Origin: Dechloromonas sp.
GTDB lineage: Bacteria > Pseudomonadota > Gammaproteobacteria > Burkholderiales > Rhodocyclaceae
NCBI GenBank assembly: GCA_016791065.1
Contig: JAEUOD010000071.1
Location: 1 to 53,243 of the forward strand
DNA length: 53,243 nt
Direction of reading: 5' to 3'
Part shown: positions 4,945-32,453 of the stretch, in pieces
Numbering within the stretch: the first letter of the stretch is position 1
Layout: every line of letters starts with the position of its first letter
The notes under the pieces: generated by a model
Seen by the model: the letters and a program-made list of their open reading frames with translations, nothing else
What the model was told of the DNA's origin: nothing
Database searches by the model: none
Translations under genes and position numbers: made by a program

Positions 4945-5862
4945 ATGAGCCGCTGGGAAGGTCTGGATGAATTCGTCGCCGTCGCCGAGTGCTGCAGCTT
5001 TTCGCGCGCCGCCGAACGCCTGCGTCTGTCATCGTCGCATGTCAGCCGGCAGGTCGCCCTGCTGGAGGAAAGGCTGCAGGCCCGGCTGCTCTATCGGACA
5101 ACCCGGCGCGTTTCCCTGACCGAGGCCGGGCAGACCTTCCTCGCGCGCTGCCAGCGCCTGATTGAGGAGCGCGATGAAGCTTTCCTGAGTATTGGCGACC
5201 TGCACAGCGCACCGACCGGCCTGCTGCGCATGACGGCAGCCATTGCCTATGGCGAGCGCTTCATCGTGCCGCTGGTTAACGATTTCATGGCCCTGCATCC
5301 GGCCCTGAAGGTCGAGATCGAGCTGACCAATCGCACCCTCGACATGGTTCACGAAGGCTTCGATCTCGCCATCCGTCTCGGCCGGCTCAGCGAATCCAGT
5401 CTCGTCGCCACTCGCCTGGCACCGCGCGCCATGTATCTCTGCGCCGCACCAGCCTATCTGGAAAAATACGGCCGGCCACATACCCTTTCCGAACTGGCGC
5501 AGCACAACTGCCTGCTTGGCACCGGCGATACCTGGCTGTTCGAGCAGGATGGCAAGGAATACCCGTTCCGGCCCAGTGGCAACTGGCGCTGCAACAGTGG
5601 TCAGGCAGTGCTCGACGCCGCACTGCGCGGCTTCGGCCTGTGCCAGCTACCGGATTATTACGTGCTCGATCAGCTGCGTCGGGGCGAACTGGTTTCCTTG
5701 CTGGAAGCCAGTCAGCCGCCTAATACCGCCGTCTGGGCGGTCTACCCGCAACGGCGTTATGCACTGCCCAAGGTACGCCTGCTGATCGAGGCCTTGAAGG
5801 ACGGCCTGGCGCGACGACCGGAGTATGACGGGAGTCCGAAGGTGGGCCGGCATCACTGCTGA
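4945..5862 (+). CDS. LysR-family transcriptional regulator, divergent from adhC
   Basis: A 305-residue LysR protein. The N-terminal winged helix-turn-helix (about 1-62) reads FVAVAECCSFSRAAERLRLSSSHVSRQVALLEE. A co-inducer-binding domain follows (about 90-295), with the CrgA-like start PTGLLRMTAAIAYGERF. The ATG follows TATAGGGATAAAA. Divergent orientation next to the formaldehyde operon makes adhC-fghA its likely target, with formaldehyde or a glutathione adduct as possible effector. The effector is not readable from sequence. Confidence 0.92.
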   Translation: MSRWEGLDEFVAVAECCSFSRAAERLRLSSSHVSRQVALLEERLQARLLYRTTRRVSLTEAGQTFLARCQRLIEERDEAFLSIGDLHSAPTGLLRMTAAIAYGERFIVPLVNDFMALHPALKVEIELTNRTLDMVHEGFDLAIRLGRLSESSLVATRLAPRAMYLCAAPAYLEKYGRPHTLSELAQHNCLLGTGDTWLFEQDGKEYPFRPSGNWRCNSGQAVLDAALRGFGLCQLPDYYVLDQLRRGELVSLLEASQPPNTAVWAVYPQRRYALPKVRLLIEALKDGLARRPEYDGSPKVGRHHC

Positions 5863-5923
5863 GAAAGCACCTGCCCGGCTGTTGCACACCCGAAAATAAG
5901 CCAGGCGCCAAGAGCGCCAGAAA

Positions 5924-8900
5924 TCAGGCAGGCCCCTGCGTCGAGGAGCGGAAAACGCTCAGGGCGTTGCGCCCTGCCGCCTTGGCCTGTCGCATGGCGC
6001 TCTCCGCCTCGCTGATCAATTGTTCGACGAGCTTGCCGCCACCGGCAAACAGGGCGATGCCAATGCTCGGCGTCACCAGGCAGCTTTGTTCGCCAAGCGG
6101 AAAAGCCTGGTTGAGCGCCGCCAGCACCTTGTTACCGATGCGCTCGACATGCAGCGATGCCTCCTCGGCGTCGCCCCCCAGACCTTCGCAGAGCAACACG
6201 AATTCATCGCCGCCATAACGGGCGACGGTATCGGCCTCGCGTACGCAGCCTATCAGGCGGATGGCGACCTGACGCAGGAGCTGATCGCCGGCGGCCTGCC
6301 CCAGGCGATCGTTAAGTCCCTTGAAATCGTCAAGATCGATGAAGAACAGGGCGCCATGAAGACCGGAGCGACGGGTGGCGGCGAGCGCATGGGCGAGACG
6401 GTCGTGCAGCAGGCGACTGTTGGGCAGTTGGGTAAGCGGATCGAAGTAGGCGAGCTGGCGGATTGACTCTTCGGCGCGGCGCCGCTCGGTAATGTCCTGG
6501 AAAACGACGACTGCTCCCGCCGTGCAGCCATTCTCGATGACCGGAGCGACGTTGAGGGAAACCGGGAAGCGTCCGCCATCCTTGCGCCAGAAGCATTCCG
6601 TGTCGGTGTAGCGACGAATGCCGTCGCGCAACGTCCGGTTGATCGGACATTCGCTGTCCGGGTAGATGCTGCCGTCGGCGCGCCGATAGTGGAAAAGCGC
6701 ATGCGCCGGGCGGCCGCTCACTTCCTCCTCGGCCAGGCCGAGCAGGTTGAGGGCGGCCGTATTGACGAAGGTGGTCCTGCCCTCGAGGTCCACACCGAAG
6801 ATGCCCTCGCCGACCGAGTCCAGCAGCAGGGCGTTACGCCGGCTCAGATCCTCGATCCGGTGTTGGTTGACACGCTCCGTCGTGACATCGCGGACGATCG
6901 CCAGGAAACCGCTCGGGAAGGTCGCCTGGGCTTCCATCACCGGGCTCAGGATGGCCATTGAAATCAGCGGCTCACCATCGACCGCAAACTGGTATTCGAC
7001 CGTCCGCGACTTGCCGTCGAGCAGAATCTCGCCCATGGCGTCGGCCAGTTGATTGGCGATCTCGACCGGTAGCGATTCGACATAGCGGCCGCCGCGCGGA
7101 TCGCTTTCGTCCTGCCCCGGATGGCGGCTGCCCGGCGGGTAGAAATATTCGACGACACTGCCGCCGGCATCGAAGACGACGACCAGATCCTGCATCGCAG
7201 CCATCAGCCGGGCCAGCCTGGCCTCGCGGGTCAGGATGGCTTCGACGCTGGCCTTGCGCTCGCTGATATCGAGGTTGGTGCCAGTCATGCGCACGGCCCG
7301 CCCGGCGGCATCCCGCTCGACGACACGGCCCCGGCAAAGAATCCAGACCCAGTGCTCGTCCTTGTGACGGACCCGGTATTCCGCCTCGAACATCGGCGTC
7401 TCGCCCTTGAGATGCCGGTAGAGGATGCGGCGCACCTCGGGCAGATCGGCCAGGTTGATCAGCCCAGTGTACGTATCGTTGTCGAGCTGCAATTCGCCAG
7501 CGGCATAGCCCAGGATCTCGGTCATCCGGGCATTGCAGACAAATGCGCCACTCGGGATGTGCCAGTCCCACAGGCCGAGACTGGCGCCGGCCAGGGCCAG
7601 CTCCATGCGCTGTTCGCTGCGCGCGACGCGGCTCAGGGCGAAACGCAGTTCGCTGATATCGACGAAGGCCCAGAGCGATTCGCCGATTTCGCGGTCGAGC
7701 ATGGCACCGCTGACATTGAGCCAGACGGTATGGCCATCCCGGTGGCGCTGCTGGAACTGCGAACGGTACACCTTGCCGGCCGCGAGTATCGGGTAGGACT
7801 CCCGGCCGAATGCCTCGTAAGCCTCGTCATCCAGGTAATTGTGCCGGGTCGGCAGGCCATTGAGTTCGCCCGGCCCGTAGCCGAGCATCTTCTCGAATGC
7901 CGGATTGGCCCAGATGATCGTCCGCTCGCGGACCCGGACAATGCCGACCAGTTCGTTTTCGATGATCGCCTTCTGCTCGGCCAGCAAGCGGTGCAACTGC
8001 TGTTCGGTGCGCTTGCGTTCGGTGACATCCTCGATCACGGACAGGCTGCGGATGATCCTCCCCTCTTCATCGCGCTCCCCGTGCGCCGAGAGCAGAACGT
8101 CGAGGACGCGACCGTCGGCAGCCAACATCCGGTATTCAACATCCTGGCAGTGCCCGGTGCGGAAAAATTCGGGAAGTATCTGGTCGTTGGCGTAACGTCG
8201 CGAGTCCTCGGTCAGGAAATCGGTGGACTTGCGACCGATCACCTCGTCGCGGCGATAGCCCAGTGTCTCGAGCCAGGCATCGCTGACGCTGACGATACGG
8301 CCTTCGGCGTCGATGGAATGCATCATCGTCGGCGTCGCGTTGTAGAGCGAACGGTAGCGCACCTCGCTGGCCGCGAGCCGCTGCTGCGTCAGCAGGTACC
8401 AGCGCGTTGCCAGGGCCGCCAGCAGGCTGAGCACCAGCGCGGCAGCGATCTCGAATGCTAGCCGGCCCGCCCCCAGCCAGCCAGCGGCCGGCGCCAGGCT
8501 GAGCATCCAGCGGCCGTTGGGCACCTCCAGCGGAATGGCGACCGGATTGTCGGCCAGGCGTGCCGCCGATTCGGCAAAGATCTGGCGTGCGCCGGTATCC
8601 GGATGCGTGCGCCAGAAGTGGTAGGCATAGCCCTGTTCGGCGAGATCCTCCAATTCGAGCGCACTCAGGAAATTGGCGAAATCGATCACCGCAATTGTAA
8701 AGCCCCAGAACTCCTGGCCGGAGTCACCGAGAAAGACCGGCAGCCGCCCGACCACGGCCTCGCCGCCCTGAATCAGGGTGAAGGGCCCGGCCAGGGTAAG
8801 ACGACGCGTCTCGACGGCAAGACGCGCTTCCTTGTTGCGCTTGGTGTCGGTCAACAGGTCATGACCAATCGCCGGCTCGTTACCGCGCAACGGAACGATC

Positions 8901-11690: not shown

Positions 11691-11719
11691 GGGGGGCGGG
11701 CAACCGCCCCCCTCTTTTT
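11691..11719 (+). terminator. strong hairpin with T-tract just before the DUF779 gene
   Basis: GGGGGGCGG, a GCAA tetraloop and CCGCCCCCC are followed by TCTTTTT, a textbook intrinsic terminator. It ends only about 12 bases before the DUF779 start codon, and the ribosome site (CGGAG) lies directly after the T-tract. It would terminate exaC transcription or act as an attenuator that limits DUF779 expression. Confidence 0.75.
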
Positions 11720-11731
11720 CCGGAGAACACC

Positions 11732-12103
11732 ATGGTCGACCGCGTCATCGCCACCCCGGCCACGCTGGAACTGATCGCCTTCCTCAAGGAGCGCTACGGT
11801 CCGGCGCTGATGTTCCACCAGTCCGGCGGTTGCTGCGACAACAGCGCCGCCAACTGCTACCTGCCGACCGACCTCACCATCGGCCCCTACGATGTCCATC
11901 TCGGCGACATCGGCGGCGTGCCTTTCTACATCAGTGCCTCGCAGTATGAATACTGGAAGCACACGCAATTGATCATCGACGTCATCGAGGGCTCGGGCGG
12001 CACCTTTTCGCTCGAAGGCAATACCGGCAAGGCCTTCCACACCCGCTCCCGTCTCTTCACCGATGCCGAGTGGGCCGAACTGCAGGCCGCCGGCCTCGTC
12101 TGA
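11732..12103 (+). CDS. DUF779 family protein
   Basis: A 123-residue protein; the start is chosen from CGGAG eight bases before the ATG. It has the family's conserved cysteine cluster (HQSGGCCDNSAANCY) and the YEYWKHTQLIIDV block. DUF779 genes very often follow ExaC/AcoD-type aldehyde dehydrogenases. The function is not established. The Cys pair suggests a metal or redox role supporting the dehydrogenase, but this is inference. Confidence 0.88.
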   Translation: MVDRVIATPATLELIAFLKERYGPALMFHQSGGCCDNSAANCYLPTDLTIGPYDVHLGDIGGVPFYISASQYEYWKHTQLIIDVIEGSGGTFSLEGNTGKAFHTRSRLFTDAEWAELQAAGLV

Positions 12104-12120
12104 CCACGCAAGGAAACCCC

Positions 12121-12450
12121 ATGAAACTGAAAACCACACTGCACCTCCTGCCGCTGCTGGCAGCCACCCTCGTAACCATCGCCAGCCCGGCCAAGGCCAG
12201 CGAGGAAATCGTCAAGAAGGCCCGCTGCGTCGCCTGCCATGCGGTCGATACCAAGCGCGTCGGCCCGGCCTACAAGGACGTTGCCGCCAAGTACAAAGGC
12301 GACGCCAAGGCGCCGGCCATGCTCTTCGAGAAAGTTCGTCACGGCGGCTCCGGCAACTGGGGCACCGTACCGATGCTGCCCCACCCGGCCGACAAGATCA
12401 GTGACGATGACCTGAAAGCGGCCATCGCCTGGATTCTGGCACTGCACTGA
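12121..12450 (+). CDS. periplasmic cytochrome c (c551 family)
   Basis: A 109-residue preprotein with signal peptide (HLLPLLAATLVTIASPAKA, cleavage about residue 26) and heme site C36-V-A-C39-H40. Met in VPMLPHP is the expected distal ligand. It starts 17 bases after the DUF779 stop with AAGGAA before the ATG. Small c551-type cytochromes accept electrons from PQQ ethanol dehydrogenase in pseudomonads (cytochrome c550, ExaB). The position next to exaC fits a similar role. Confidence 0.9.
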   Translation: MKLKTTLHLLPLLAATLVTIASPAKASEEIVKKARCVACHAVDTKRVGPAYKDVAAKYKGDAKAPAMLFEKVRHGGSGNWGTVPMLPHPADKISDDDLKAAIAWILALH

Positions 12451-12607
12451 CCGGAGAAACGGCCGCAATGCAAGGCATGGCGTAAAGCCTGGATCGGCCC
12501 GAACGGACTGGAAGATTGCGGACGATAGGCGGACAATGTGCCGCTGTTGTCCGCACACTGCGCCAAGCGCACATAACCAGCCCACGGCATTTCGACCAGG
12601 AGACACC

Positions 12608-13729
12608 ATGAAGAAAATCGCTTTCGCCCTTGCCTGCCTCGGCCTCGTCGGCGGCACCAACGCCGCCCTGGCCCAGACGGTCGTCAAGATCGCCTTTGCC
12701 GGACCGCTGACCGGCCCGATCGCTCATATCGGCAAGGAAGAGGAATACGCCACGAAACTGGCGCTCGACGACGCCAATGCCAAGGGCGTCACCATCGGCG
12801 GGCAGAAACTCCGTTTCGAATTGATGTCCGAGGATGACCAGGGCGACCCGCGCCAGGCCACCATCGTCGCGCAGCGTCTGGTCGATGCCGGCGTCAAGGG
12901 CGTCGTCGGCCATGTCACGTCGGGCGCCGCCATTCCGGCTTCGTCGGTCTATGAACAGGGCGGCATCCCCGCCATCACCCCGTCGGCGACCAGCCCGAAG
13001 CTGACCCAGCAAGGCCTCAAGGTCGTCTATCGCGTCATCGCCAACGACTTCCAGCAAGGTGAGGCGATGGCCAAGTTCGCGGCCAACGTGCTCAAGGCCA
13101 AGACCATCGCCATCGTCGACGACCGCACCGCTTACGGCCAGGGCCTCGGCGACGCACTGGCCGACAACGTGAAAAAGCTCGGCATCCAGGTCGTCGCCCG
13201 TGAATACACCAGCGACAAGGCGGTCGACTTCACCGCCCTGCTGACCCGCATCAAGAGCAAGAACCCGGATGCCATCTTCTACGGCGGCATGGATGCCCAG
13301 GGCGCACCGATGCTCAAGCAGATGAAGCAACTCAGCATCGCCGCCAAGTTCCTCTCCGGCGATGGCTCATGCACCAGCGAAATGCTCAAGCTCGCCGCTG
13401 CGGCTCTGTCGCCCGACGTCTATTGCACCCAGGCCGGCATCCCGGCAGAGAAGATGCCGGGCGGCGTCGAGTTCAAGAACCGCTTCAAGCAGCGCTTCAA
13501 TACCGACGTCCAGCTCTACGCCCCGTATGCCTATGACGCGGCAAATGTGCTGATCGAAGCGATGAAGCTCGCCAATTCGACCGATCCAGCCAAGTACCTG
13601 CCGATGCTGCAGAAGGTGAACATGAAGGGCGTTACCGGCACCATCGCCTTCGACGCCAAGGGCGACAACCGCTACGGCGGCATTACCCTGAACCAGTTCA
13701 ACGGCGGCAAGTGGGTCGTGCAGAACTGA
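12608..13729 (+). CDS. branched-chain amino acid-type ABC transporter substrate-binding protein
   Basis: A 373-residue periplasmic binding protein of the LivJ/LivK type. Signal peptide about 1-22 (MKKIAFALACLGLVGGTNAALA). The mature part has the family features VKIAFAGPLTGPIAHIGKE, DDQGDPRQATIVAQRLV and the ligand-loop region VVGHVTSGAAIPASSVYEQ. The start follows CAGGAGACACC. No permease or ATPase genes are adjacent, so the rest of the transporter is elsewhere or the protein serves another purpose. The ligand could be an amino acid or a small amide or acid. Confidence 0.93.
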   Translation: MKKIAFALACLGLVGGTNAALAQTVVKIAFAGPLTGPIAHIGKEEEYATKLALDDANAKGVTIGGQKLRFELMSEDDQGDPRQATIVAQRLVDAGVKGVVGHVTSGAAIPASSVYEQGGIPAITPSATSPKLTQQGLKVVYRVIANDFQQGEAMAKFAANVLKAKTIAIVDDRTAYGQGLGDALADNVKKLGIQVVAREYTSDKAVDFTALLTRIKSKNPDAIFYGGMDAQGAPMLKQMKQLSIAAKFLSGDGSCTSEMLKLAAAALSPDVYCTQAGIPAEKMPGGVEFKNRFKQRFNTDVQLYAPYAYDAANVLIEAMKLANSTDPAKYLPMLQKVNMKGVTGTIAFDAKGDNRYGGITLNQFNGGKWVVQN

Positions 13730-13747
13730 GTCCGGCACCCACGCCAC

Positions 13748-13778
13748 AAGCCCTCCCGCCCCGGCCGGAGGGCTTTTT
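13748..13778 (+). terminator. intrinsic terminator after the LivK-type gene
   Basis: AAGCCCTCC and GGAGGGCTT form a 9-bp stem around a GC-rich loop, followed by a T-run. It lies between the convergent LivK-type and kup genes. The T-run is on the plus strand, so it ends the exaC-side transcript. Confidence 0.8.
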
Positions 13779-13781
13779 CAT

Positions 13782-15662
13782 TTAAAGCACGACCTGCGAA
13801 CCCAGCTCGACCACCCGGTTGGAGGGAATTCTGAAGTAGGCGGTGGCGCTGCCCGCATTGCGGAACATGGCGACGAAGATCAGCGTACGCCAGTAGGCCA
13901 TGCGCGAGCCTAGCCGGGGAATCAGCGTTTCCCTGCCGAGGAAGAAGGAGGTATCCATCATGTCGGCCTCCAGCCCGGCGTGACCGCACAAGGCCAGCGC
14001 CGCCGGGATATCGGCCTCGTCCTTGAAGCCGTAATGCACGATGAGCTGAACGAAGTTGCCGGCCAGCCGATGCACCTCCACCCGGTCGACCTCGGGCACG
14101 TAGGGCACGTCGAAAACCTTGACGCTGAGGATGACGACCTGCTCGTGCAGCACCTTGTAATGCTTCAGGCTGTGCAGGAGCGCGTGCGGCACCGAATCCG
14201 GGTCGGGCGTCATGAACACCGCGGTGCCAGGAACCCGTTCGACGCCGCCCTCGGCGATGCTGGCGATGAAGGGCGGCAACTGCATGGCATCGGCCGCCAG
14301 GCGCTCGCCAAGCAGTTCGCGACCACGCTTCCAGGTGGTGAGCAACATGAAAACAAGCAGGCCGAAGACCAGCGGAAACCAGCCGCCATCGGGAATCTTC
14401 ACCGAATTGGCGAGGAAGAAGCCGAGGTCGATGCAGATGAAGGGCAAGGCACCGAGGATGGCGCGCGCCGGGCTCCAGTCCCACAGCCTGACGGCCACGG
14501 CGATGGCGAGGATGTTGGTGATCAGCATGGTACCGGTGACCGCGATGCCGTAGGCTGCAGCCAGGTTGCTCGATGAACGGAACTCGACGACGAGCAGGAT
14601 GATGGAAATGAGCAGCAGCCAGTTGATTGCCGGCAGGTAGATCTGCCCGATCTCGCGCTCCGAGGTATGCTGGATTTCGAGGCGCGGCGTGAAGCCGAGC
14701 TGCATCGCCTGCTGGGTGATCGAGAATGCCCCCGAGATGACGGCCTGGGAAGCGATGATGGTCGCTACCGTGGCCAGGATGACCAGCGGGTAGCGTCCCC
14801 ATTCCGGCGCCAGCAGGTAGAAGGGGTTCTCGACGGCGCTCGGGTCGGCAAGCAGCAGCGCCCCCTGCCCGAAATAATTGATCAGCAGCGCCGGCAACAC
14901 ATAGCCCAGCCAGGCGTACTGAATGGGGCGTGCGCCGAAGTGCCCCATGTCCGCATAAAGGGCTTCGGCCCCGGTGATGCAGAGCACGACGGCGCCGAGC
15001 GCCAAGAAGCCGAGCACGGAATTGCCGAGCAGGAAGTTGAGGGCGTGGATCGGATTGACCGCCGCCAGCACCGCCGGGTTCTCGACGATGGCAGCGGCGC
15101 CCAAACTGGCGAGCACGGCGAACCAGAGCAGCATGACCGGCCCGAACAAGGCGCCGACGCTGGCCGTGCCCCGGCGCTGGAAAACGAAGAGCCCGATCAG
15201 GATGGCCAGGGTGATCGGCAGGACGAAGGGCTTGAAGGCCGGCGTGATGATTTCCAGACCCTCGACCGCAGAAAGCACGGAGATGGCCGGCGTGATGACG
15301 CCGTCGCCATAGAACAGCGCAGCACCGAACAGGCCGAGGATGACGAGCGACTTCTGCTGCCAGGTGCCAGCCACGCCCTTGTGCAGGGCCAACGTCATCA
15401 GCGCGATGATGCCGCCCTCGCCCTTGTTGTCGGCACGCATGATGAAGGAAACGTACTTGAGCGTGACGACGATGAGCAGCGACCAGAAAAACAGGGAGAG
15501 AATGCCGAGCACGTTCTCGGGCGTGATCGGCACCGGATGATGGGCTCCGCCGAAGACTTCCTTGATCGAATAGAGGGGGCTGGTGCCGATATCGCCATAG
15601 ACGATGCCGAGCGCCGCCAGCGTCAGCGTCGCCAGACGCTTCCGGTCCTGAGTCTGTTGCAT
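13782..15662 (-). CDS. kup: Kup-type potassium uptake transporter
   Basis: A 626-residue low-affinity K+/H+ symporter of the inner membrane with about 12 transmembrane helices in the first 430 residues and a cytosolic C-terminal domain. The N-terminal family signature GIVYGDIGTSPLYSIKEVFGG is present, as are GDGVITPAISVLSAVEGLE and QGALLLADPSAVENPFY. The start at 15662 is chosen from TAGGAG six bases before the ATG; an upstream extension would overlap kdpE. It begins nine bases after the kdpE stop, so it is in one operon with a KdpDE-type two-component system. Confidence 0.95.
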   Translation of the reverse strand: MQQTQDRKRLATLTLAALGIVYGDIGTSPLYSIKEVFGGAHHPVPITPENVLGILSLFFWSLLIVVTLKYVSFIMRADNKGEGGIIALMTLALHKGVAGTWQQKSLVILGLFGAALFYGDGVITPAISVLSAVEGLEIITPAFKPFVLPITLAILIGLFVFQRRGTASVGALFGPVMLLWFAVLASLGAAAIVENPAVLAAVNPIHALNFLLGNSVLGFLALGAVVLCITGAEALYADMGHFGARPIQYAWLGYVLPALLINYFGQGALLLADPSAVENPFYLLAPEWGRYPLVILATVATIIASQAVISGAFSITQQAMQLGFTPRLEIQHTSEREIGQIYLPAINWLLLISIILLVVEFRSSSNLAAAYGIAVTGTMLITNILAIAVAVRLWDWSPARAILGALPFICIDLGFFLANSVKIPDGGWFPLVFGLLVFMLLTTWKRGRELLGERLAADAMQLPPFIASIAEGGVERVPGTAVFMTPDPDSVPHALLHSLKHYKVLHEQVVILSVKVFDVPYVPEVDRVEVHRLAGNFVQLIVHYGFKDEADIPAALALCGHAGLEADMMDTSFFLGRETLIPRLGSRMAYWRTLIFVAMFRNAGSATAYFRIPSNRVVELGSQVVL

Positions 15663-25843: not shown

Positions 25844-27826
25844 ATGGGACAAATTCAACTGGCATCCGGGTTGCACGGCACGCAACTTCTGGAAGCAAGA
25901 GCACTGTATTTCGAACGTGGCGAACTGCCGGCGGGACTGGTCGACCCGGTCATCCTGCGCTCCTGGGAGCGTTGCCGCCGCTTCGGCCTGAGTGAAGGCC
26001 ACCACCTGCCGGGCGTCGAAGCGCTCGACCGTGTCGCCCTGAAAGTCGAACAGGAACGCAACCGCGCCCTGCTCAAGCAGGTGCGGCCGATCATGGAGCA
26101 CGTCTACGAGCAGATTCGCGAATCGGGCAGCATGGTGATCCTGGCCGACGCCAACGGGATGTTGCTCGAAACCGTCGGCGACCCCGATTTCGTCGATCGC
26201 GCCGACCGCATCGCGCTCGCCGCCGGCGCTTCCTGGGATGAAAACCTGCGCGGCACCAATGCGATCGGCACGGCGCTGCTCGAGGAACGCCCGGTCGAGG
26301 TCCTCGGTGCCGAGCATTTTCTCCAGCACAACGGCTTCCTGACCTGCTGCGCCAGCCCGATTTTCGGGCCGGACGGCCGGCTGACCGGCGTACTCGACAT
26401 TTCCGGCGACTATCGCGCGACGCAGCGCCACACCCTCGGTCTGGCGCGGATTTCCTCGGCCATCGCCGAAAAACGGCTCTTCGAGTCGCAACACGGCAAC
26501 GACATCATCGTCAGTTTCCACGGTCGCACCGACTACCTGGGCAGCCCCAAGGAAGGCATGGCCGCCGTTTCGCCCGACGGCCAGGTGCTGGCGATCAACT
26601 ACAACGGCCTCGAAATCCTCGGCATCCGCCGGGTCGATGCGGTGCGCCGCGATTTCTCGATGGTCTTCGAGAGCAGCCTGTCGAGCCTGATCGACCGCCA
26701 GCGCCGCGACCCGCTCGGCAGCTTCGAGATCACGGTCAGCGGCAAGGCCGTCGCCATCCAGTTGCGCGGACGGCTGCCGAATGCCGCGAGCAGCGGTCGG
26801 GTCTATGACGAGGCACCGGTCGAACGCCCGGCGCCGCGGCGCAGCGAGCCGGGCAGCACGCCGGTGCTGACGCTGGACACCCTGAACACCGGCGACGCCC
26901 GCCTGCAGGCGGCAATCGACCGTGCCCGCAAGATGCTCGGCCGCGACATTCCGATCATGATCCAGGGCCAGTCCGGCGCCGGCAAGGAGATGTTCGCAAA
27001 GGCCTATCACAACAGCGGCCCGCGCCGGGCCGGCCCCTTCGTCGCGCTCAACTGCGCCTCGATCCCGGAAACCCTGATCGAATCGGAACTCTTTGGCTAC
27101 CAGGGCGGCGCCTTCACCGGTGCCCGCAAGGAAGGCGCCCCGGGCAAGATCCAGCAGGCCCATGGCGGCACCCTCTTCCTCGACGAAATCGGCGACATGC
27201 CGCTCAACCTCCAGGCCCGCCTGCTGCGCGTGCTACAGGAACGTTGCGTGACGCCGCTGGGCAGCACGCGGGCCATCCAGGTCGACATCTCGCTGGTCTG
27301 CGCCACCCACCGCCGGCTGCGCGAGGAAGTCGCGCGCGGCAGCTTCCGCGAGGATCTCTACTACCGTCTCAACGGCATGAGCGTCACCCTGCCCGCCCTG
27401 CGCGAACGCAGCGACATCCGCCAACTGGTCGCCAAGCTCGCCGCCGAGGAGGCGCGTGACCGCGAGCAGGTGCGCTTCTCGGAAGGTGCGATGCAGGCCA
27501 TCGAACGCTACGACTGGCCGGGCAACATCCGTCAGTTGTTCAACGTCATCCGCGTCGCCATCGCCCTGCTCGACGATGGCGAAAACCTGATCTGCGAGTG
27601 CCACCTGCCGGAAGAGCTGTTCGAGGCCGAACCGCCGATGCCCACCGCCTGTACCGGCGCCCAGTGGGCGGCGGCACCACTCGACCAAGGCAGCGGCAGT
27701 CTCGAGGAAATCGGCCGCCAGGTCGCACAGCGGGCCTTGGAAGCCGCCGGCGGCAACGTCTCGGCAGCCGCCCGCCAACTCGGCATCAGCCGCAACACGC
27801 TGTATCGGAAGCTGGGGCGGTTATAG
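25844..27826 (+). CDS. sigma-54-dependent transcriptional activator (AcoR type)
   Basis: A 660-residue enhancer-binding protein. The N-terminal AcoR-like region and GAF domain span about 25-220, followed by a PAS-like segment (about 230-300). The AAA+ domain has a Walker A at 375-382 (GQSGAGKE), the sigma-54 contact loop GAFTGA at 422-427 and Walker B GGTLFLDEIGDMP. A Fis-type helix-turn-helix ends the protein (AARQLGISRNTLYRKLGRL). AAGGAG-like AGGAGAG precedes the ATG. AcoR-type proteins respond to alcohols, aldehydes or acetoin. The neighbouring promoters make the pedF operon and exaC likely targets. Confidence 0.95.
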   Translation: MGQIQLASGLHGTQLLEARALYFERGELPAGLVDPVILRSWERCRRFGLSEGHHLPGVEALDRVALKVEQERNRALLKQVRPIMEHVYEQIRESGSMVILADANGMLLETVGDPDFVDRADRIALAAGASWDENLRGTNAIGTALLEERPVEVLGAEHFLQHNGFLTCCASPIFGPDGRLTGVLDISGDYRATQRHTLGLARISSAIAEKRLFESQHGNDIIVSFHGRTDYLGSPKEGMAAVSPDGQVLAINYNGLEILGIRRVDAVRRDFSMVFESSLSSLIDRQRRDPLGSFEITVSGKAVAIQLRGRLPNAASSGRVYDEAPVERPAPRRSEPGSTPVLTLDTLNTGDARLQAAIDRARKMLGRDIPIMIQGQSGAGKEMFAKAYHNSGPRRAGPFVALNCASIPETLIESELFGYQGGAFTGARKEGAPGKIQQAHGGTLFLDEIGDMPLNLQARLLRVLQERCVTPLGSTRAIQVDISLVCATHRRLREEVARGSFREDLYYRLNGMSVTLPALRERSDIRQLVAKLAAEEARDREQVRFSEGAMQAIERYDWPGNIRQLFNVIRVAIALLDDGENLICECHLPEELFEAEPPMPTACTGAQWAAAPLDQGSGSLEEIGRQVAQRALEAAGGNVSAAARQLGISRNTLYRKLGRL

Positions 27827-28111
27827 AGAACAGTTTCGGCCCACCGCCGCCACTCGACGATTCCGGAATGCAGCCAAACGACTGACCGCTGAACTCCGAA
27901 ACCTGGTGGAAGTGCAACTCACGCAACTTGGCCGAAGCGGCCGGTCACGGCATTAACCGAATACGTCCGCTTAAGGCTAATTGCAATCGCTCAGGACTGC
28001 AGGTTTTAGCGGCTGCTTGAGACGATACCTGTCTTTCGAGGAAGCAGGTTCGCATCAAATTCGCATCGGTGCGACAAGGGAAAGGTGGTAAAGTTAGGTC
28101 AGCGCAGACAA
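27827..28111. other. noncoding left flank of the defense locus
   Basis: 285 bases between the activator gene and the helicase gene, more A/T-rich than the surrounding genes. It holds short CCGCT/AGCGG-type fragments and no convincing reading frame, tRNA or insertion-sequence end. It may be the left junction of an acquired segment. Confidence 0.4.
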
Positions 28112-29833
28112 CTATGACCAGTCACTGAAGCCGGCGTCCCTGAAGCGCTTGATTAGTTCTGCCTTTGTTGTGTTTGGCAGCGCTACCACCAACAAATCTC
28201 TCGCTCTCGTCAGGCCAACGTAGCCGATCCGCCCATCCTCGTGGACCGGTCCGGCCAGAAGCTTGGACACGTCGCTTGACCGCAGCAAGTACAAGACGGC
28301 ATCGATGCTCTGTCCTTTCGCTTGGTGAACAGTCCTGACGGGGGGGAGTGGTACGGTCGACGTAGCGAGGTCCTGGAACCACAGCGGTTCTTCGGACAGT
28401 TCCTTTGATGTGACCCCATACCCCCACTTCGCGATGTAAGGCAAGCCGCATTTCCTTTCCAGCGTCGTCAGCAACGGCGTTAGATTTGCCTTCAATTTCG
28501 GGAGCCAGTCACTTTTGGCGTTCAATGACGCCGGCGGAATACCCGTCGCAGGCGTCCTGAGGAATGCCCAGATGATGCGTCGCACGGCTTTTGCTCGAAG
28601 GTCGTCGGTGCCGCACAGCACCGTGGCCCTGAGGGTCGGAGGAGGTCTGTCTAGTAACCGAAACGCGCCGTCTACTGCGTGGGTGAAGGCTTCCGCGATG
28701 TCTCCGTTTCGGTCGCGGCTGAAGGCCGCGCGGGCGAAGTGCTCCGTGGCTCCCTGACCCCAACTGTCCCCAGATCCCGCGATGAGCGACACGGTGTCTC
28801 TGGCTCTGCAGAGTACCGCGGCCGAGTCGTGCGCATATCCATGGTTGGCCAGTATTTCAGCGAACGTCGACCGGACCTTGATGAGTTCTTCGTCCTTGTA
28901 AGTCATCAGATACGGTCCACTCATGCGAGTCGGGACGGGTCTGGCGGAGAAGTATGTGGTGCTACTCAGTTTGTTGGTTACGTCCACCAGCACCTGGATT
29001 GAGCGACGGTTCTCCGACAGCGTTTCCTTCTGACCCGTTACCCCAGGATCAAAATTGCGCAGGAAGCTGCCGTCAGCGTGGGCGAACTCGTAGATAGCCT
29101 GGTTGGGATCGCCCACAAGCGAGACGGTCACCCCTTCTGCGATGAGTAACTCCAGTAGGCATCCGTGCACGCTTCCGATGTCCTGTGCTTCGTCGATCAG
29201 GATGTAGGGGTAGCGCTGCGCAAGAATTTTGAGCAATCGCGGCCGATCCACTAACGTGTTAATCGCCCAGTAGCGTCCTAGGTCGTGCGTGTAAGCGCCT
29301 GCCTTGCCCAACTTCCCAATCGCAGCGAGCGCGGTGAAATCGTTGACGGGAACAGCGTTGCCGCGCATAGCGGTGTTGAAGAAGTTCCACTTGGTCCCGT
29401 TCAAGACGGCGGAGAGAAACCGGATTTCCTCGTTGAATTTCCCGTTGAAGAAGGTGAACCCTTTCAGAAATGGTTCGTGACCATTCACTAGGTAGGGCCT
29501 TCGAGCGCACTGCATCGTTGGCGCTGCGTGGGAAGACAGGATGTGCGATGTCACGAAGGCGTCGACCGTGCATATCAGCACTCGGCTCGACAAATCATGC
29601 TGCCCTGCGGTCAACTTCGCATATTCAGCTCGGAAGGTTTCAACCGCGACATTCGAGTAAGAGAGCAGAGCCACGTACTGCCGGGAGGCGCCAAGCTGCC
29701 GGCGGACTTCAGCGAGCCTTCGTACTGCCGTCGCTGTCTTGCCACTGCCGGCGCAGGCGATGACCCGCTGGCTAACGAGGCCTGCCTCAATGATCAGCTT
29801 CTGCTGCGGAGACGGGGTAAATACCCATGTCAT
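28112..29833 (-). CDS. gajB: GajB-like UvrD/Rep-family helicase of a Gabija system
   Basis: A 573-residue superfamily 1A helicase. Q-motif PSPQQKLII near 8-16, Walker A CAGSGKT (27-33), Walker B LIDEAQD (212-218), motif III LVGDPNQAIYEF, motif V VHQAKGQSIDAVL and motif VI YVGLTRARDLL are all present. Its start overlaps the OLD nuclease stop (ATGA), so the two are coupled. In Gabija, GajB senses DNA ends and activates GajA against phage DNA. It is somewhat longer than the reference GajB (about 494). Codon use is clearly less GC-biased than in neighbours, which suggests transfer. A generic DNA-repair helicase is less likely given the partner. Confidence 0.88.
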   Translation of the reverse strand: MTWVFTPSPQQKLIIEAGLVSQRVIACAGSGKTATAVRRLAEVRRQLGASRQYVALLSYSNVAVETFRAEYAKLTAGQHDLSSRVLICTVDAFVTSHILSSHAAPTMQCARRPYLVNGHEPFLKGFTFFNGKFNEEIRFLSAVLNGTKWNFFNTAMRGNAVPVNDFTALAAIGKLGKAGAYTHDLGRYWAINTLVDRPRLLKILAQRYPYILIDEAQDIGSVHGCLLELLIAEGVTVSLVGDPNQAIYEFAHADGSFLRNFDPGVTGQKETLSENRRSIQVLVDVTNKLSSTTYFSARPVPTRMSGPYLMTYKDEELIKVRSTFAEILANHGYAHDSAAVLCRARDTVSLIAGSGDSWGQGATEHFARAAFSRDRNGDIAEAFTHAVDGAFRLLDRPPPTLRATVLCGTDDLRAKAVRRIIWAFLRTPATGIPPASLNAKSDWLPKLKANLTPLLTTLERKCGLPYIAKWGYGVTSKELSEEPLWFQDLATSTVPLPPVRTVHQAKGQSIDAVLYLLRSSDVSKLLAGPVHEDGRIGYVGLTRARDLLVVALPNTTKAELIKRFRDAGFSDWS

Positions 29834-31551
29834 GGTGTTGTCACGTACACCAATGCATCGGCAATGTAGGTCGGCGTTGTAAACGAGACCGCTGGATCCG
29901 CGATGACGGCCGCAAGAGCCTGTGCAAACTCGCCTTTCTTAACGTTGCCGACAGTCGGGCCGCGATCGAACATTCCGCAAAATAACTCGCGCGGCTTATT
30001 TGCGGCCGCTGCCGCATCGACTTTGAGTTTTAGCTCTGCGGCAATGCCAGGATGGATATCTGCCAAGGCAGTCAGCATGTGCGTCTGGTTCGCAGGAAGC
30101 AGCGCCAGATCGTATTCCAGCGTGCGGGCGGCGAAGTACGTCTTGATGTGGGTGTTTGCAAGCTTGGCAATCGCCGTTGCTGCCGCAGACATTGTCGGCG
30201 TAGCCCCTAGGACCGGATAGCCTGGTGCGTCAGCGTCGCTCAGAATGGCAACTCGGATTGGGATCGCAGCGCTGCCGAAGAGCGGGGCGAAGCAATCGAA
30301 GTTCAGCCCTTCTGTGCTCAGGATCGTCACCGAGTGCTCACGCAGCTTGATGCTCATCTTGGCTGCCATGGCTTCGACCAGAAAGCGCTCGGCCGTTCCT
30401 TCTACGAGGATGAGCCGGCGCGCAAAAAACAAGTCCGCACGCGTCACGTCGAGGTAGCGCTGGAGCTTCTCCTTCTTCTTTGGCAGGAAGGTGGCTTCCC
30501 TCGGGAAGAACGCGCCAATCTTGCCTTCGCCCTGATGCAGGCAGGTCAACGAATCGAGCTTTGCCGCGCTAGCGAAATGTGGCGAATGGCTTGTGACGAA
30601 GACTTGAACTGGCTTTTGTCCCGGTACTGGTGCTTCGATGGCCTGTAGATGATCGAGTAGCACGACCTGCAACTGAGGATGTAGGTGAGCTTCAGGCTCT
30701 TCGACAATCAAAGCCTTGTAGGCTGCATCTGGATTCAGGGCCAGCTCGCTCAGGACAACCGCCATGTAGATCAGGTTGTTGTACCCCAGCCCGTTCTGCT
30801 CGATGTCGAGGCCTTCGACTGCAAGCGCCAAGCGCGCGGCCAGCCGCTGAAACTCAGGTGGTGTCAGGCCAATCTTCAGTGCCTGTTTGAGTGTCGAGCC
30901 AAGCATCGCGACATGGCGAGTCTCAATCGCAGACTGGGTCTTCGCTACGGGCTTCTCGACTTCGAGCTTCTCTTCAAATTTCTTTAGTAGCTCGACGAGC
31001 TCTTCCTTCTCGCTGTCGTTGGCGAGCCGATCGATAAGGCGTGCCAGCTGGCTGCTACGGCTGGGCTTGAGTCCTGATGCTGGGTCGCGCAAGGGGGGCA
31101 GATACACCGCCCGGAGATCTTCGAGCATCTCTGTAGTGATGCTGTTCTCTTCATGATCGCCGCACCAACGTTTGGGACGCATGCGGCCGGTCGTTCCGTT
31201 GGTGTTGTACCGCACCCACAGATGTGCCTCGTACTTGTCAGGGGCACCAGGTGCTGCCAGCATTGGCTTCAAGGCCGGGAGAAAGTCCGCCTCTTCATCC
31301 AGCGTGAGGTCCCTGAACACATAGTGAAAGGTGATCTCGGTGGCGGCGTGTCCGCCCGATGCATGGAGATCGTAGGCATCGACTCTGAGAGCACCTTCTT
31401 CCGCAGTTGTGAGCAATGCGCGTAGTCCATCCACCACCGCAGTCTTGCCGACGTTGTTGGGACCGACTAGCACATTTAGTCCTGGTCTGAACCGAAGATT
31501 GAGCTCTTCTACCCGTCGGAATCCTTTGACATTCAAGGCAGCCAAATACAT
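29830..31551 (-). CDS. gajA: GajA-like OLD-family ATPase-nuclease of a Gabija system
   Basis: A 573-residue class 2 OLD protein, close to GajA in size (578). The ABC-type ATPase half has Walker A GPNNVGKT (30-37), a signature-like GLGYNNL (about 254-260), Walker B LIVEEPEAHLHP (281-292) and the His switch TSHSPH (320-325). The C-terminal Toprim nuclease has E384 (LVEGTAE), D439/D441 (LSDADAP) and a late KKGEF segment. AGGGAG lies before the ATG. Pairing with a UvrD-like helicase defines Gabija, where GajA nicks or cuts invading DNA and is restrained by nucleotides. Confidence 0.9.
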   Translation of the reverse strand: MYLAALNVKGFRRVEELNLRFRPGLNVLVGPNNVGKTAVVDGLRALLTTAEEGALRVDAYDLHASGGHAATEITFHYVFRDLTLDEEADFLPALKPMLAAPGAPDKYEAHLWVRYNTNGTTGRMRPKRWCGDHEENSITTEMLEDLRAVYLPPLRDPASGLKPSRSSQLARLIDRLANDSEKEELVELLKKFEEKLEVEKPVAKTQSAIETRHVAMLGSTLKQALKIGLTPPEFQRLAARLALAVEGLDIEQNGLGYNNLIYMAVVLSELALNPDAAYKALIVEEPEAHLHPQLQVVLLDHLQAIEAPVPGQKPVQVFVTSHSPHFASAAKLDSLTCLHQGEGKIGAFFPREATFLPKKKEKLQRYLDVTRADLFFARRLILVEGTAERFLVEAMAAKMSIKLREHSVTILSTEGLNFDCFAPLFGSAAIPIRVAILSDADAPGYPVLGATPTMSAAATAIAKLANTHIKTYFAARTLEYDLALLPANQTHMLTALADIHPGIAAELKLKVDAAAAANKPRELFCGMFDRGPTVGNVKKGEFAQALAAVIADPAVSFTTPTYIADALVYVTTP

Positions 31552-32078
31552 TTATTCTCCCTGTTGAAATATAACTTTGGCGACTTCCATGCTGGTTGCC
31601 CAAGTCATGCTTTGGGGATGCATTTTCAGGCTCAGATAATGATAGCAGGTAGGTTCTCAGTGGTCCGTCACGCACCTCCAAGTAGCGACAACATGCACTT
31701 GTCAATAATCAGCAACAGCACGCGAAAAGCGTGAACGCATTGCCAGTATCCGCATTCGCTGCGCAGTGGCCGTTCAAGAAACTCAGCTCCACAGTCCGCT
31801 CTGGCCGAGGAGCGGCAGTTCGCAATTGTCCACAAGCAGAGGCTTTATTCAGTTACCTGTCGTTGACCGCTTAGCGTAGCGGCAGCCTGGATCAGGCAAC
31901 AGGCTATTCGAAAAGGACAGGGCAGGAGATTTGGAAGCACACCTCAACCTCGGCTAGTTTGAACCACAAGCTCGCCAACGCAACAAAGTCTGCTTCCCGT
32001 ATCAGGATCGCCCGCTTTTTCCGATTTGATTGCCTTTTATCCGCGCAATCCTCATTGAATTACTTTTCCCCGGGCTCA
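31552..32078. other. noncoding right flank of the defense locus
   Basis: 527 bases with no convincing gene. It contains a likely gajA promoter region (A/T-rich GTTATATTT about 25 bases before the start) and two short hairpins of CCGCT/AGCGG arms (31797-31816 and 31868-31883). No tRNA, integrase or insertion-sequence terminal repeat is visible, and no long direct repeat shared with the left flank was found by eye. Confidence 0.45.
31797..31883. repeat. two related short hairpins
   Basis: CCGCT-N10-AGCGG at 31797-31816 and CCGCT-TAGCGT-AGCGG at 31868-31883, both followed by CAG, about 71 bases apart. They look like degenerate copies of one intergenic palindrome. Confidence 0.4.
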
Positions 32079-32453
32079 TCACAGCAAGGGATTTCGAGTC
32101 AGTGCCACACTGACGATGTAGGCGTAGGACAGCAAGGCCAGGGCGAGAAAACGCAGCCGGCCGCTGCGGCTTTTCGCCCTTTTCAAGGCCAGCGCGCCGA
32201 ATACGATATAGGCGAGCAAGCCGATGACCTTGGCGGTCAGCCAGCCCTGGACGAAGGGATATTGGCCGCTCATCCAGGCGAGGGTCAGCGCGCTGCCGAG
32301 CAAGACGGTATCGACCAGATGCGGCAGCGTCTTGCTCAGGCGATGCTGCCGCAGCGGCGACTGGCGCGCCATCCACCAAGCGCGCAGGCAGAAACCGAGA
32401 CCGCTGAGCACGACGCAGGTGACGTGCAAATGCTTGAGGGCGAGATAACTCAT
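32079..32453 (-). CDS. SirB2-family membrane protein
   Basis: A 124-residue protein with four predicted transmembrane helices and the SirB2 features LKHLHVTCVVLSGLGFCLRAWW, LPHLVDTVLLGSALTLAW and WLTAKVIGLLAYIVFGALAL. The biochemical role of SirB2 is not established. It overlaps the upstream heme-copper-like membrane protein gene by four bases and is the last gene of the hemerythrin operon. Confidence 0.9.
   Translation of the reverse strand: MSYLALKHLHVTCVVLSGLGFCLRAWWMARQSPLRQHRLSKTLPHLVDTVLLGSALTLAWMSGQYPFVQGWLTAKVIGLLAYIVFGALALKRAKSRSGRLRFLALALLSYAYIVSVALTRNPLL

Follow-up and report, generated by a model that had tools for sequence, protein, structure and literature searches.

What system do two overlapping genes on a Dechloromonas sp. 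contig encode, and how did they come to lie where they do? The contig (JAEUOD010000071.1, assembly GCA_016791065.1) was analysed over its positions 1 to 53,243, hereafter the window, and an original prediction had read the two genes as a Gabija-type anti-phage system in an atypical island. Both genes are on the minus strand: gajA (29830..31551) encodes an OLD-family (class 2) ABC ATPase-Toprim nuclease, and gajB (28112..29833) encodes a UvrD-like superfamily 1 (SF1) helicase. An open reading frame (ORF) check confirmed that each product has 573 amino acids (aa) and that the two frames share four bases (ATGA, 29830-29833). The pair is very probably a complete Gabija anti-phage system, and its horizontal acquisition is well supported.

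The identity of the pair rests on profile, fold and gene order. The gajA product matches the PADLOC GajA model PDLC00071 over residues 1-572 (2.9e-227) and the gajB product the GajB model PDLC00106 over residues 6-572 (8.4e-195), each by far the best PADLOC match. Pfam places AAA_15 and OLD-like_TOPRIM in GajA and UvrD-helicase in GajB above cut-off, while an NCBIfam scan of both products gave no match over cut-off. Structures were modelled for GajA and GajB as single chains, and the GajA model matches the fold of Bacillus cereus GajA over its whole length at ~16-17% identity. We also compared 63 GajA-like loci (62 from genome contigs and one from viral contigs), from which the sequences aligned below were selected. 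A GajB-like ORF lies downstream in 60 of the 63, at -59 to +13 bp in 57 and at 529-576 bp in three, so the pairing is above chance; no such ORF was found downstream in the remaining three (L031, L032, and L047).

It is extremely unlikely that the two genes form some other OLD and helicase pair, such as a class 1 OLD standing alone next to an unrelated repair helicase, or a component of a retron or of a PARIS-like system. In favor of such a pair, TsOLD ranks first for GajA by both Foldseek and profile search, UvrD is the nearest match to the GajB model, and the PARIS AriA model also matches (1.8e-31). These matches have to be set against the lead of the GajA and GajB models in PADLOC and the gene order kept across the GajA-like loci. 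Further, a class 1 OLD gene stands alone, whereas here gajB overlaps gajA. For a retron (class 3 OLD), no reverse transcriptase was present among the neighbors scanned, and no retron or other RNA family reached the gathering score in 27700-32200, where the one weak match was to a trypanosome snoRNA model (E 0.071). A review also equates GajA with OLD proteins that have such a helicase as partner (PMC10568477).

The key motifs named in the original prediction are likewise intact. In GajA, the Toprim residues E384, D439, and D441 are invariant in all 36 aligned sequences (the window's and 35 others), as are H322, E479, and K539, and Walker K36 is a lysine in 35 of the 36, the other being a late-starting sequence with a gap there. 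The three Toprim residues align to E379, D432, and D434 of B. cereus GajA, which are reported to form its Toprim site (PMC10781630). In GajB, K32, D214, E215, Q217, D218, Q245, R277, K506, and R543 show no variation across the 34 aligned sequences (the window's and 33 others), and the Walker A residues K32 and T33 and the DEXQD-box residues D214, E215, Q217, and D218 are all kept. The helicase had been thought long enough to suggest a divergent subtype, but this did not hold: the 34 aligned GajB are 500-598 aa long (median 569), with 33 at 551-598 aa and one at 500 aa, and it is the solved B. cereus GajB chains, at 493-499 aa, that are the short ones. GajB length is thus rejected as a sign of a new subtype.

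The intact frames and residues also bear on whether the copy has decayed, or has been domesticated in the chromosome without a defence role, e.g., retained for DNA repair. Such a fate might be suggested by a degenerate end and unexplained DNA outside the transferred unit described below, and by a promoter scan of the locus that returned no promoter-like site; a terminator scan returned six terminator-like sites, compared with 4.0 (sd 1.9) in shuffles. However, the genes are under purifying selection, with ratios of nonsynonymous to synonymous divergence (dN/dS) of 0.11 (gajA) and 0.15 (gajB) against the copy in Azonexus sp. GS18, and of 0.11-0.20 over four comparisons. Unlike a housekeeping gene, the pair is also missing from 74 of 76 genus genomes, GajB being present only in the window's own and in G010. 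Decay or domestication is therefore very unlikely.

How the pair arrived can be read from its flanks. On one side is a regulator with GAF and sigma-54 activator domains by Pfam (25844..27826, plus strand), and on the other a SirB-family gene (32079..32453, minus strand; Pfam SirB, 1.9e-42), both being host genes outside the system, convergent in orientation, in a bacterium that probably belongs to the Azonexus group. Noncoding flanks of 285 bp (27827-28111) and 527 bp (31552-32078) separate them from the pair, as originally described. At a threshold of E 1e-100, the regulator is present in 49 of the 60 genus genomes. With 60 genomes searched per flank, both flanks fall on one contig in 40, and are far apart in three of these (G020, G030, and G032). 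Among the 37 genomes that share synteny, only the window's own carries Gabija at this site. The distance between flank matches is 383-546 bp in 25 of the 37, which leaves room for the SirB-family gene and little more; it is 601 bp in G035, where the regulator match stops short, 961-2142 bp in nine, 34 kb in G063, and 4629 bp in the window. At empty sites the SirB-family gene directly adjoins the regulator, and nine such sites inspected base by base have the flanking genes 4-58 bp apart.

Acquisition, which the original prediction had proposed, is thus borne out by empty sites in relatives, and also by a near-identical copy elsewhere. The nearest named relative of the window's GajA, at 97% identity, is in Azonexus sp. 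GS18, whose own version of the window's site is empty (28 bp) and whose Gabija lies at a different place in the chromosome. Synonymous divergence (dS) between the window and GS18 is 0.116 for gajA and 0.248 for gajB, whereas the flanking regulator, which is the one host gene in the comparison, stands at 1.24. Composition agrees with the earlier description of the pair's codon use as less GC-biased than that of its neighbors, the four 1-kb blocks in 28001-32000 having a G+C of 0.550-0.580 compared with 0.586-0.684 elsewhere. For the genes themselves, taken from an ORF list that includes shadow ORFs, G+C is 0.574 (gajA) and 0.584 (gajB), and G+C at third codon positions is 0.651 and 0.702 respectively. 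The word "island" overstates the case, as the insert is one 4.25-kb stretch with a single system. A PADLOC scan of ten other window proteins matched only the flanking sigma-54 regulator, via a shared activator domain.

The window's site (27827-32078) holds other cargo in ten relatives, which is 0.6-1.8 kb long in nine of them and includes nucleotidyltransferase PF12281 proteins (G072 and G076) and a GGDEF protein (G071). The tenth, G063, has a 34-kb insert with a DDE transposase; ten of its ~25 larger ORFs were scanned, and gave two weak PADLOC matches, both to one protein.

The piece shared with GS18 is a compact unit at 27930..31808 (minus strand), 93.6% identical over 3879 alignment columns. 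Outside this homology are 103 bp between the regulator and the unit (27827..27929) and 270 bp between the unit and the SirB-family gene (31809..32078); empty sites have only 4-58 bp in total. In GS18, the neighbors of the unit are what we take to be TetR-like and YidB-like genes. A third copy, on the DeMMO4_3 contig, is 93.1% identical to window positions 27965-31692.

It is possible, albeit tentatively, that the unit is bounded by repeats, carries no transposase of its own, and is mobilized in trans. A 19-bp inverted repeat in GS18 (18/19 match, contig positions 2778-2796 and 6638-6656) sits at the limits of homology with the window and was reached in none of 2000 shuffles. In two relatives (L182 and L183) the flanks stop no more than 11 bp from the same limits, and in other relatives up to ~60 bp away. 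In the window, the gajB-side end (27927..27945, plus strand) matches the 19-bp motif with two mismatches in a pattern search of its own genome. Several observations weigh against mobilization of this kind. The gajA-side counterpart (31790..31809, minus strand), placed by alignment, has more than two mismatches, and the window's repeat is degenerate and not significant (169 of 2000 shuffles). The DeMMO copy has limits that differ from those of the window and GS18, and no duplication of the target came to notice. The repeat is also a post hoc find that overlaps in part with a hairpin of the host DNA at the GS18 site. As a genus-wide repeat family the end motif is ruled out, with 87 matches at two or fewer mismatches in 76 genus genomes (46 of which have a match) vs. 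265 for a backward control; exact matches are limited to the two ends in GS18 and a single site in G068. Beyond the window's own genome and GS18, the unit ends as DNA queries gave only weak matches in the 76 genomes, six for one end and three for the other. One such stretch, in G034 (C106, ~1500-1550), has 51 bases 82% identical to the gajA-side end (E 2.8e-7) beside different ORFs. Within 27780-32130 we found seven direct and five inverted repeat families of 14-24 bp, none of which accounts for the unit ends.

There is about an even chance that the pair instead arrived on conjugative elements or through recombination between defence loci, the shared limits then being due to chance. The DeMMO4_3 copy is near a TraI_2-type conjugation gene (4.1e-57), which gives one possible route of transfer, and near a coupling protein-like gene below Pfam cut-offs. 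GajA has relatives on 1271 plasmid records, of which 706 are conjugative, at identities that all stay below 60%; 47 of the 1271 matches cover 80% or more, and as DNA 20 plasmid records match, none reaching 80% coverage. Against transfer by these means, the ORFs looked at beside the unit, in the window as in GS18, include no conjugation or integrase gene, and this reading leaves the exact repeat at the two ends of the GS18 unit unexplained. Viral sources gave little: of the 18 IMG/VR stretches that were candidates, one codes for a relative (29% identity), and five phage records match, every one below 60% identity.

In GS18, Gabija sits in the TetR/YidB gap, which resembles a one-system defence site. 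Among eight genus genomes with both of its flanks close together on one contig, one is empty (G082) and seven have different cargo, namely Gabija (G010), Drt3a with Drt3b (G008), Drt8 with a PDDEXK partner (G069 and G006), an Old-like protein (G070), a NACHT protein (G074), and a DUF3800 protein (G031). The empty site (G082, C279:5400-6100) contains a perfect hairpin of 18 bp, whose two arms resemble the sequences on either side of the cargo in G008, G031, and GS18. Gabija on the DeMMO4_3 contig lies between the genes for a 774-aa protein whose C-terminus is NERD-like (PADLOC, 4.7e-18) and a 773-aa protein with no match in the scan (5208-7532 and 11702-14023); these are possibly further defence genes.

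How would the acquired pair act? Assembly, nucleotide control and phage restriction are drawn here by analogy with characterized Gabija systems. B. cereus GajA and GajB are reported to form a 4:4 ring, in which the nuclease is inhibited at normal nucleotide levels and released upon phage-driven depletion (PMC10822852). By the same scheme, a GajA tetramer would probably carry four GajB helicases here, and the GajA ATPase domain would keep the Toprim nuclease in check for as long as nucleotides are abundant. Once phage replication lowers nucleotides, or linear phage DNA is present that RecBCD does not hold, the complex would cut phage DNA, and GajB would assist by engaging or unwinding it.

Whether the cutting would be sequence-specific is a separate matter. 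In B. cereus GajA, mutating lysines in loop 436-442 is reported to result in non-specific cutting (PMC10822852). The corresponding loop there contains LKSKKGKK, whereas the window's GajA has only two lysines in the 41 residues from D439 to E479, none of them in the loop right after DAD; lysine-rich patch 1, which follows DxD in the B. cereus protein, is missing from it and from its closest kin. The GS18 and DeMMO4_3 proteins have the same segment length and two lysines, L023 has three, and more distant GajA have one to ten. Since the lysine-rich specificity loop of B. cereus is absent, the window's GajA may cut DNA with little sequence preference. The patch bears on B. cereus-type sequence-specific nicking and does not define Gabija itself. 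A literature search joining Gabija with sequence-specificity and lysine-rich terms found no papers, a result that concerns that search only and does not establish that the pattern is new to the literature. It is doubtful that these points generalize, i.e., that betaproteobacterial Gabija is a 3.9-kb repeat-bounded, recombinase-less cassette entering single-system defence sites between host genes, with a non-specific GajA targeted via GajB or DNA ends and not by a recognition sequence.

Gabija is reported in >15% of sequenced prokaryotic genomes (PMC10781630), so that a further member adds little. The system itself is familiar: the transfer with its limits and the missing lysine patch are useful details and do not make a new system; what is new is the compactness of the transferred piece and its landing place. 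The locus is useful as a clean case of transfer with limits readable in two genomes, the window's and GS18, and the prediction that GajA cuts without sequence preference is testable and matters for the question of how Gabija distinguishes its own DNA from that of phages.

Among known systems, Gabija of B. cereus VD045 has the same two-gene order, an OLD ATPase-Toprim protein with an SF1 helicase, and the same catalytic residues, but its GajB has 493-499 aa vs. 573 aa here, and its GajA has the lysine patch at 436-442 that the window's lacks. For the class 2 OLD nucleases BpOLD (Burkholderia pseudomallei) and XccOLD (Xanthomonas), the solved structures cover the Toprim regions only. LsGajA of Ligilactobacillus salivarius Ren, a distant lineage, is reported to be a non-sequence-specific nuclease (PMC13304284), and is likened here by that behavior, which is predicted for the window's GajA. 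Closest is the GS18 unit, 93.6% identical as DNA over 3.88 kb, which differs by its chromosomal site and its intact 19-bp end repeats.
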